From Butyrivibrio sp. (lineage in GTDB: Bacteria; Bacillota; Clostridia; Lachnospirales; Lachnospiraceae): a DNA stretch of 64,000 bases. A model generated the notes under the pieces. That model made no database searches, was not told where the DNA came from, and saw nothing but the letters and a program-made list of their open reading frames with translations. Shown in pieces: positions 30,163 through 58,288 of this stretch (the first letter of the stretch is position 1; each line of letters begins with the position of its first letter). The stretch covers positions 30,224 to 94,223 of the forward strand of contig JAGAAO010000071.1 in NCBI GenBank assembly GCA_017615275.1, written 5' to 3'. The position numbers and the translations under genes are program-made.

Positions 30163-30266
30163 GATTTGATCGAGGAGTAATCAAATCGGAGCAAATTTGA
30201 GCAGGTGCTTGAGTTTGCTTCATTTTTTGTGTAGAGCAGTTAGCGAGGTTTTTTCGAGCTTACTGC
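30163..30266 (+). terminator. Terminator and first three hairpins after the histidine kinase
   Basis: H1 pairs GATTTGAT with ATCAAATC (30163-30187). H2 pairs GCAAATTTGAGCA with TGCTTGAGTTTGC (30191-30218) and is followed by TTCATTTTTT, a good intrinsic terminator for the transporter operon. H3 pairs GCAGTTAGC with GCTTACTGC (30236-30266). Confidence 0.7.
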
Positions 30267-30274
30267 GAACCATA

Positions 30275-30441
30275 CAGATTCACTTGGCGAGGTTTTGACG
30301 AGCCTAGTGAATCTGTAGTGGATAGGAAGTTCCTATCCCACAAAAAGCTCCGCAGGGATGCGACTGGTGCGCAGATGAAAATTGCAAGCTGGAAGCTTGC
30401 GCGCACCAGCGCAAAGAGTTGCTTTGCAACTCTTTGTTTTT
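30275..30441 (+). repeat. Dispersed structured repeat, copy 2, with preceding hairpin and terminal terminator
   Basis: H4 pairs CAGATTCACT with AGTGAATCTG (30275-30315) and shares its loop motif GCGAGGTTTTNNCGAGC with H3 upstream. H5 (GGATAGGAA/TTCCTATCC, 30320-30338) precedes the core CTCCGCAGGGATGCGA (30348-30363). H6 pairs CTGGTGCGC with GCGCACCAG (30364-30409) and encloses GCAAGCT/AGCTTGC. H7 AAAGAGTTGC/GCAACTCTTT (30413-30435) ends in a T run and would terminate transcription. Confidence 0.65.
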
Positions 30442-30562
30442 AGAAAAGGTGAGTGAAATGCTGCGCTGTTGATAAAGGTTGAAGTATATGGTATTATGTT
30501 AATAATATGTTTAGATGTTATTAATTTATTGATAATAGAGTAAGGAGAGTTTTGTTTGGGAA
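30442..30562. other. AT-rich gap between the hairpin cluster and the phased array
   Basis: No gene is seen. The stretch contains TATTATGTTAATAATATG-like AT-rich dyads (about 30490-30510) and a weak ribosome-site-like AAGGAGAG at 30542, with no open frame behind it. Confidence 0.4.
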
Positions 30563-30565
30563 GCG

Positions 30566-30801
30566 TTCTACGTGAGACTATGCAAAGAACTAGAGAAGTT
30601 CACGTAAATATTACCGGGAATTGCGATAATTTACGTGAGACATTACCAAGAAAACAGTGCGATTCACGTAGATATTGCCAAAAATTGAGAGAATTTACGT
30701 GAGATCTTGACCAAAATAAGGGCGATTCACGTAGATTAGACGCAGAATCAAAATTTTTTACGTGAGTGGGAACAGAAATCAAGTAGCTGCTCACGTAAGG
30801 G
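30566..30801. repeat. Array of eight TTACGTGA/TCACGTAA sites at 31-33 base spacing
   Basis: ACGT cores lie at 30570, 30602, 30633, 30666, 30697, 30729, 30760 and 30793, giving intervals of 32, 31, 33, 31, 32, 31 and 33. Sites alternate strictly between the TACGTGAG and TCACGTA forms, so full periods are 63-64 bases. Intervening bases also show a weak shared pattern (ATTRCCAA then GCGA). The array ends 35 bases before the next gene. It matches no CRISPR, riboswitch or known operator that I recognise. Confidence 0.85.
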
Positions 30802-30835: not shown

Positions 30836-31189
30836 ATGGGATTATTTGATTTTTTCAAGAAAAAGGAAATTATTTCTTTTGCAGAAATCGATTCGGTGAG
30901 TAAAGCAAAGAAAGAAGTCAGGAACGGCAATTTAGAAAAAATGTTTATTATGTCACCGATGTTTGGCGGCGCAACAGATGAATCAAACATCCTATACGTT
31001 CCTGTCGGAGTAAATAAGATTAAGGAAAGCTATGACAATATGCTTGCTGATCTTGTTGAACAGGGAAAAGCAGTATCATTTGATTGCACACCTGAATACA
31101 GAGGTGACAGCGTTGTTCCTTGTAAGATTACGCTTACCGCAGGGGGGGATGGAGAAGACACATTTAATCAGACAATAAATGTTTGGTAG
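30836..31189 (+). CDS. Small protein of unknown function (117 residues)
   Basis: The protein begins MGLFDFFKKK, a start common to many small cytoplasmic proteins, and has the mixed composition of a soluble alpha/beta fold. Middle motifs are MFIMSPMFGGATDE and ILYVPVGVNKIKE. I do not recognise the family. The gene has a good GGGAGG ribosome site (30822-30827) and is the first gene after the phased array, so it is the most likely gene to be controlled by that array. Confidence 0.7.
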   Translation: MGLFDFFKKKEIISFAEIDSVSKAKKEVRNGNLEKMFIMSPMFGGATDESNILYVPVGVNKIKESYDNMLADLVEQGKAVSFDCTPEYRGDSVVPCKITLTAGGDGEDTFNQTINVW

Positions 31190-31936: not shown

Positions 31937-31959
31937 GAACAGAAGTTGTGAATATATAG

Positions 31960-32050
31960 GATTTGGCAAACATACAGTGATGTATGGACGCAAAGTTGTA
32001 AGTCTTTTATGTAAGATGGTTTGACTGCAAATTGGTAGAGAAATCTGCTA
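31960..32050 (+). ncRNA. Cyclic di-GMP-I (GEMM) riboswitch
   Basis: The two invariant blocks of the class I c-di-GMP riboswitch are present in order: GGCAAAC (31965-31971) and GGACGCAAAG (31986-31995). Between them CATACA and TGTATG form the first helix with a GTGA (GNRA) loop, exactly as the family requires. A second helix (TCTT/AAGA) and TGGTTTGACTGC follow. The copy at 58202 has compensating differences in the helices. The expression platform is the terminator at 32024. Confidence 0.85.
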
Positions 32051-35864: not shown

Positions 35865-35980
35865 ACGCTATAATGCTAAAGGAGTAGCTGTCATATTTTC
35901 GGTGTTGCAGTCCTCATAAAAAAAATATATAAAACACGGCAATTTGTGCTATTATATCTATGGAAAATTTATAGAGCGGA

Positions 35981-36180
35981 AGGTGTCTGCAGCTTTTATG
36001 GCTGTAGGTGAAAAGGGAAGCATGTGAAAATCGTGCACGAACTCGTCACCGTGATTCGATAAGGTTACTTGATACGCCACTGGGAATCCCCGGGAAGGCA
36101 TAGTAACCGGCGCTTATATACCGCAGCAGTAATGATGTGGCGGGCGCAATCGATCAGCCGGGAGACCTGCCTGTCGCTGT
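35981..36180 (+). ncRNA. Cobalamin (B12) riboswitch
   Basis: The conserved blocks of the adenosylcobalamin riboswitch appear in order: a paired stem beginning AGGTGTCTGCAG, GGTGAAAAGGGAAGC (36007-36021), GTCACCGTGA, CACTGGGAATCCCCGGGAAGG (36078-36098, broken here for length: CACTGGGAATC then CCCGGGAAGG), and the B12 box GCCGGGAGACCTGCC (36157-36171). Bound cobalamin would switch off the downstream B12 operon, probably through the terminator at 36281. Confidence 0.95.
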
Positions 36181-36280
36181 ACATGGGATATCCAAGCCAC
36201 GAGGAACTGGTTGTACGAAGAAGATGATTTACGGCAGAGATGCTGTAGATTGTTTTTTGCGCGTGTTTATACGGAAACAG

Positions 36281-58165: not shown

Positions 58166-58201
58166 GAGTATTTCACGTGGTAGAATGTCAATAATTTACA
58201 T

Positions 58202-58288
58202 GATTAGGCAAACATATAGTGATGTATGGACGCAAAGTTGTAAATCTTTTTAAAAAGATGGTTTGACTGCAAAATGGCGGAGATATCT
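58202..58288 (+). ncRNA. Cyclic di-GMP-I (GEMM) riboswitch, second copy
   Basis: GGCAAAC (58207-58213) and GGACGCAAAG (58228-58237) flank CATATA/TGTATG with a GTGA loop. A perfect second hairpin ATCTTTTT/AAAAAGAT (58243-58258, loopless as written, so the terminal pairs open) then TGGTTTGACTGC follow. The sequence is close to the copy at 31960 but differs in paired positions. Confidence 0.83.

Follow-up and report, generated by a model that had tools for sequence, protein, structure and literature searches.

In type III toxin-antitoxin systems of the ToxIN kind, a repeat array is located directly upstream of a nuclease gene. Repetitive extragenic palindromic (REP) sequences and bacterial interspersed mosaic elements (BIMEs), together with the REP-associated tyrosine transposase (RAYT, TnpA-REP), form 'REPtrons', in which a nuclease is associated with cognate, alternately oriented and dispersed repeats, as set out in two reports (PMC2817692, PMC8266576). 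In this work we analysed a 64-kb stretch of Butyrivibrio DNA (the window), which contains an array of eight short, alternately oriented sites at 30566..30801. We consider it probable, if far from certain, that this array is a dispersed, nuclease-free copy of the cognate array of a Vsr-like PD-(D/E)XK protein.

As in REP/RAYT, a dedicated nuclease appears to be paired with its own cognate repeat, copies of which lie close to the gene and also scattered between other genes, and the repeats alternate in orientation at regular spacing. GTAG, which recalls the REP foot, occurs in roughly half of the sites when these are read in one orientation (TCACGTAG), a likeness that chance could produce. The enzyme, however, is PD-(D/E)XK/Vsr-like and not a Y1 HuH tyrosine transposase related to IS200/IS605. 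Its sites are short duplex motifs (7-8 bp), set out in helical phase and separated by spacers that fold no better than shuffled sequence. A REP is a palindromic hairpin with a GTAG/GGAG foot. A RAYT gene is flanked by two inverted family repeats, whereas in other genera the present arrays were upstream in 17/26 loci and within 600 bp downstream in 2/26. REPs usually, though not always, exceed 100 copies per genome; the present genome (85% complete) has 77 TACGTGA/TCACGTA sites in nine arrays. Membership in REP/RAYT was rejected on two counts, the HuH enzyme and the two-sided flanking; the system may work like REP/RAYT, its closest known kind, though it is not a member. Given that it has another enzyme, another type of site and another geometry, we rate the nuclease-array system as a new kind, for which an earlier description is possible; none was found in searches of an open-access library, which is weak evidence of absence. 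CRISPR was rejected on its repeat criterion (identical direct repeats, unrelated spacers), as the sites are alternating 7-mers and the flanks of neighbouring units are about 51-55% alike.

The TACGTGA array and its relatives

The window array consists of the 7-mer TACGTGA (F) and its inverse TCACGTA (R), and its sites, all 7-mer matches, are as follows.

30569..30575, + strand: site 1, TACGTGA
30600..30606, - strand: site 2, TCACGTA (inverted)
30632..30638, + strand: site 3, TACGTGA
30664..30670, - strand: site 4, TCACGTA (inverted)
30696..30702, + strand: site 5, TACGTGA
30727..30733, - strand: site 6, TCACGTA (inverted)
30759..30765, + strand: site 7, TACGTGA
30791..30797, - strand: site 8, TCACGTA (inverted)
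30566..30801, no strand: whole array, in which a unit of 63-64 bp (six helical turns) holds one of the four pairs of sites; probable dispersed copy without a nuclease gene

All eight sites carry the 7-mer, F and R alternating strictly from F at site 1 to R at site 8, with ACGT cores at 30570, 30602, 30633, 30666, 30697, 30729, 30760 and 30793 and successive gaps of 32, 31, 33, 31, 32, 31 and 33. A preliminary description of this DNA had given the core positions exactly and the gaps as 31-33 bases; its alternation of two site forms holds strictly for the 7-mer, and the outer T/A of its 8-mer is not constant (CTACGTGAG at 30570, TCACGTAG at 30666). Eight of the ten such 7-mers in the window fall inside the array, and no 240-bp span held more than 2 in 200 dinucleotide-preserving shuffles of the window. 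Since Tandem Repeats Finder gives a 64-bp unit (2.2 copies, 81% matches), the repeat unit is the inverted site pair of 63-64 bp and not 32 bp, so that the degenerate 32-base tandem repeat considered earlier is set aside.

Through the use of two exact patterns, we found nine arrays on nine contigs of the same genome (C1, C4, C15, C25, C26, C36, C42, which is the window, C73 and C90), with zero matches for the backward control patterns. All nine alternate, with R-to-F gaps mostly of 31 and F-to-R gaps of 32 or 33. In the eight nuclease-free arrays, perfect 7-mers occupy 61 of 67 phased positions, a figure biased upward because the arrays were found by that 7-mer, and flank identity is 51-55% between neighbouring units and 32-36% between arrays. 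Judged by eye, six of the nine lie between co-directional genes, two between divergent and one between convergent genes (L037), and the adjoining genes, of mixed orientations, have no evident common theme. Of the nine array contigs, only C1 has a nuclease homologue; six further contigs, which lack a TACGTGA array, have one as well.

The R-F pair pattern was present in 17/61 Butyrivibrio genomes, this one included, versus 0/38 genomes outside the genus. An F-R-F triple scan of the genome collection returned 60 stretches. By title, 55 belong to Butyrivibrio, Pseudobutyrivibrio or other Lachnospiraceae/Clostridiales. Among arrays of at least four sites (eight loci dropped), F-to-R gaps were 30 bp once, 31 in 33 cases, 32 in 126 and 33 in 68, and R-to-F gaps were 29 once, 30 in 7, 31 in 105, 32 in 42, 33 in 10 and 34 once; 62/68 arrays start with F and finish with R. 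In the logo around the selected 7-mer (339 distinct sites), position -3 is T and position -2 is T or C; a weak C (+13) and G (-8) also show, and in the own genome the 7-mer is followed by A or G. Spacers folded no more stably than shuffles of equal base composition (z -0.12 and -0.02); deviations at individual positions were scattered and of both signs. Conservation of spacing with variable spacers, the check proposed in the preliminary description, thus holds in the own genome and in related species.

Several relatives deserve separate mention. One uncultured Clostridiales genome (L070, L088, L097, L098) has paired four-site TACGTGA arrays about 208-212 bp apart. In XPD2002 the TACGTGA arrays are irregular (L044, L078), and L127, the nuclease most similar in that genome, carries a degenerate TACTTGA array, so that the motif may be changing there. 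At L091 (2566-4132), a Mutator-family transposase gene (PF00872, 3.2e-114) is inserted inside a TACGTGA array with an apparent duplication, ATCTTCCCA; L041 is an uninterrupted homologue.

The nuclease family and its upstream arrays

Directly behind a sister array, outside the window, is the gene for a 266-aa protein (G000:C1:24658-25455), the putative cognate nuclease of the window array. Its Vsr-like PD-(D/E)XK active site has the conserved catalytic residues E, D and EH, and active-site residues are identical in 27/27 family members. The structural model resembles I-Bth0305I, TnsA, Bax1 and Vsr, and both the catalytic core fold and the conserved acidic residues of the PD-(D/E)XK / Vsr-EDxHD group are present; the active-site residues suggest that the protein cleaves DNA. 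The N-terminal part is modelled as a coiled-coil hairpin with a three-stranded sheet. For three members, the Pfam search gave nothing under E 0.008 and NCBIfam no family at all, and PADLOC matches were to the PDC-S68 C-terminus (3.6e-27) and HEAT_CxxC_PD-DEXK (6.5e-5 to 0.0022). This unnamed family has up to nine members per genome and occurs in 82/250 sampled Lachnospiraceae genomes. The upstream neighbour gene, which we take to be GMP synthase, looks alike in 5/9 close homologues. The catalytic-domain fold and the residues E, D and EH are shared with the EDxHD/Vsr-like homing endonuclease I-Bth0305I. The present family differs in that one genome has several paralogues, the majority of them preceded by an array, and in the N-terminal part described above. 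No intron or intein context was noticed around the nuclease genes, whose flanking genes were only glanced at, with no dedicated search.

Among the matches listed, all nine homologues of at least 68% identity have upstream TACGTGA arrays, and a Pseudobutyrivibrio nuclease of 53% identity keeps the motif. Most other paralogues carry other motifs (for example GGATGAA, ATACACG, TATATGC, GGACGTA, CTATCTG, CTGCCTA, TGACACG, GAGTGTT and AACAGGG). We searched upstream regions blindly for alternating inverted 7-mers, in a first set of 74 regions taken down the homologue hit list (73 from the genus and one from Pseudobutyrivibrio) and a second set from other genera of Lachnospiraceae (28 loci, two of them without a recognised frame, giving 26 regions, several short). 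Arrays scored above all 444 shuffles in 58/74 regions of the first set and above all 260 shuffles in 17/26 of the second. At a score cut-off of 3.2 the counts were 54/74 and 17/26, compared with 1/100 regions upstream of unrelated mechanically called open reading frames (ORFs) and 2/26 regions downstream of the nuclease. At L229 a strong array is found downstream as well as upstream of the nuclease (score 16.8 vs 9.0). By eye, the paralogues L117, L118 and L150, which have different arrays, have in common a leader hairpin GAGCC..TCGGCTC followed by GTGGC, possibly a common leader RNA.

The distance between same-facing sites in the first set took only the values 51-54, 63-65, 73.3-75.8 and 84-85 bp, corresponding to five to eight helical turns. 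For 34 motif families (the count after merging by a script rule) the Rayleigh R was 0.887 at 10.5 bp and 0/5000 uniform draws were as high, a probability that overstates the case because related nucleases are not independent. In other genera, unit lengths were 51.5-54 and 63-64 bp (17 arrays, R 0.934), with one region under the cut-off at 42 bp. Planted arrays of random period were recovered in 199/200 cases with R 0.05, so the period pattern is not made by the finder. A tree was built for 44 nucleases out of 71 labelled loci, the remainder having upstream DNA only. Turn class tracks its clades, with 7 parsimony changes against a shuffled mean of 16.7, yet well-supported branches force several turn-class changes, 4 in the case of five turns and 5 in that of six turns. 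The own genome itself contains six-turn (C1), five-turn (C80, C82) and seven-turn (C72) arrays. The robust part of this result is that unit lengths fall into four classes spaced by about 10.5 bp and that changes of class have recurred.

Nuclease-free copies were also found for other motifs. A CAACAG/CTGTTG array is located upstream of the C82 nuclease, and its second copy (C1:53103-53295) is 28 kb from any nuclease match. TGCCTA arrays occur in 9/61 genus genomes, with a nuclease frame alongside in four, within the stretches read. Two lone TGCCTA copies in one genome are 84% identical over 291 bp, and their homology runs no more than about 45 bp beyond the array. A further copy has the array and upstream DNA but lacks the gene. 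In a separate TACGTGA subfamily, a six-site array is carried in a miniature inverted-repeat transposable element (MITE), about 300 bp long and bounded by terminal inverted repeats; clear 9-bp target duplications are seen in 2/8 copies listed (L073, L066).

L073 517-816, L066 4922-5222 and six more: MITE copies, ends TGTCATTTAGATAA/TTATCTAAATGACA

Proposed mechanism and competing explanations

Co-location, a motif and geometry that follow the nuclease clade, and helical phasing lead us to infer that the nuclease binds the array. As a dimer or higher oligomer, it would bind the sites cooperatively from one face of the duplex, and the same binding on its own upstream array would probably provide autoregulation. 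Dispersed arrays would arise by array copying, perhaps via nuclease-started breaks and repair, and could then serve as extra binding platforms, with titration, local repression or parasitic spread as outcomes. Copying by the nuclease is a guess, as other movers exist. A wider proposal, for which we put the chances at about even, is that Lachnospiraceae harbour a large, unnamed class of nuclease-array pairs, in which paralogues evolve new motifs with new arrays, the unit is kept at 5, 6, 7 or 8 whole helical turns, and arrays lacking a nuclease gene are spread around the chromosome by some of the pairs. Such a class would parallel REP/RAYT with an unrelated enzyme, and would recognise phased arrays in double-stranded DNA.

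Several observations weigh against the assignment of the window array to this nuclease. Both binding and cutting are deduced from sequence. The N-terminal part, presumed to bind DNA, gave no clear structural match. No array above the shuffles was found in 16/74 and 9/26 upstream regions (some of them short, some N-rich, and L149 wrongly cut), and those shuffles preserved base composition only. TACGTGA arrays exist without a close nuclease homologue in some genomes (G012, G040, G054), and for two of the four motif families examined in the own genome, no exact copy is dispersed elsewhere. In the MITE subfamily, spread is explained by the MITE and not by the nuclease. No clean empty site was found, and the non-independence of related nucleases affects the Rayleigh probability as stated above.

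Three other explanations were weighed, for which two further features of the window are needed.

30469..30497, + strand: promoter-like TTGATA-17-TATTAT, 5' of the array, consensus match only
30836..31189, + strand: 117-aa ORF, 3' of the array

An operator regulon, in which the PD-(D/E)XK-fold protein represses or silences its own promoter as well as the genes that adjoin dispersed arrays, with cutting irrelevant, is possible but rather unlikely. The array precedes the nuclease gene itself, the window array sits between a promoter-like site and a gene, and the predominance of co-directional neighbours (6/9, by eye, with 2 divergent and 1 convergent) would suit such a role. These neighbours have no evident theme, though, one array lies between convergent genes, and the invariance of the active site in 27/27 members goes beyond the needs of a pure repressor. 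The inverted sites might instead act in RNA, as hairpins of a leader transcript (a type III antitoxin-like or guide-like RNA) that control the nuclease. They could indeed pair, a leader hairpin recurs, and promoter-like sequence, array and gene follow in that order in the window and, by eye, in L117 and L118. An array directly 5' of the nuclease gene also recalls type III toxin-antitoxin loci, in which the toxin processes a structured repeat RNA. The spacers, however, lack any folding excess, an RNA would not be expected to have its unit length tied to helical turns, and dispersed copies without the gene adjoin unrelated genes; no Rfam match reached the gathering score, with weak matches only in L137 and a weak rliA match over part of the array (E 0.9). 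We regard this explanation as very improbable.

The least probable explanation is a plain mobile repeat, either a MITE or a degenerate tandem repeat, with no protein-binding role. Copies are dispersed in intergenic DNA and one subfamily is the MITE described above, whereas the own-genome arrays have no MITE-type terminal inverted repeats, nearly all of their phased 7-mers are perfect (a proportion raised by selection) against flanks only about one-third identical between arrays, and spacing is conserved across species.

Reading the window array as a nuclease-free copy of a cognate nuclease array agrees with the helically phased candidate protein-binding array of the preliminary description, which gains from the kept spacing, the divergent spacers and the recurrence of the integral-turn rule with other motifs; on this point the description was probably right, with the window array as a single case within a nuclease-array system. 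It had not anticipated that the binder would probably come from a family of Vsr-like nucleases that have arrays upstream of their own genes. An unexplained intergenic repeat would thereby be linked to a widespread nuclease family, and dozens of natural protein-motif-geometry pairs make DNA recognition, helical-phase cooperativity and the spread of interspersed repeats directly testable. If nuclease and array co-evolve, they offer a natural series of retargeted DNA-binding nucleases.

Surroundings of the window array

Because the promoter-like sequence precedes the array, the array may belong to the 5' leader of the gene at 30836, which by eye is preceded by a Shine-Dalgarno-like GGAGG; three promoter-like sites were found in the stretch against 1.4 expected. 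The earlier attribution of the array to this gene as such was not borne out, as other arrays adjoin different genes. The 117-aa product had no family match above a curated cut-off.

Just upstream of the array, at 30221-30440, are two abutting intergenic repeats (about 30223-30320 and 30321-30440) that form a second repeat family unrelated to the array, with many short matches (about 74-100% identity) scattered, among the matches listed, through most of the 54/61 matching genus genomes. Two cyclic di-GMP-I riboswitches are located at 31955-32032, about 1.1 kb 3' of the array, and at 58197-58274, and a cobalamin riboswitch at 35964-36188.
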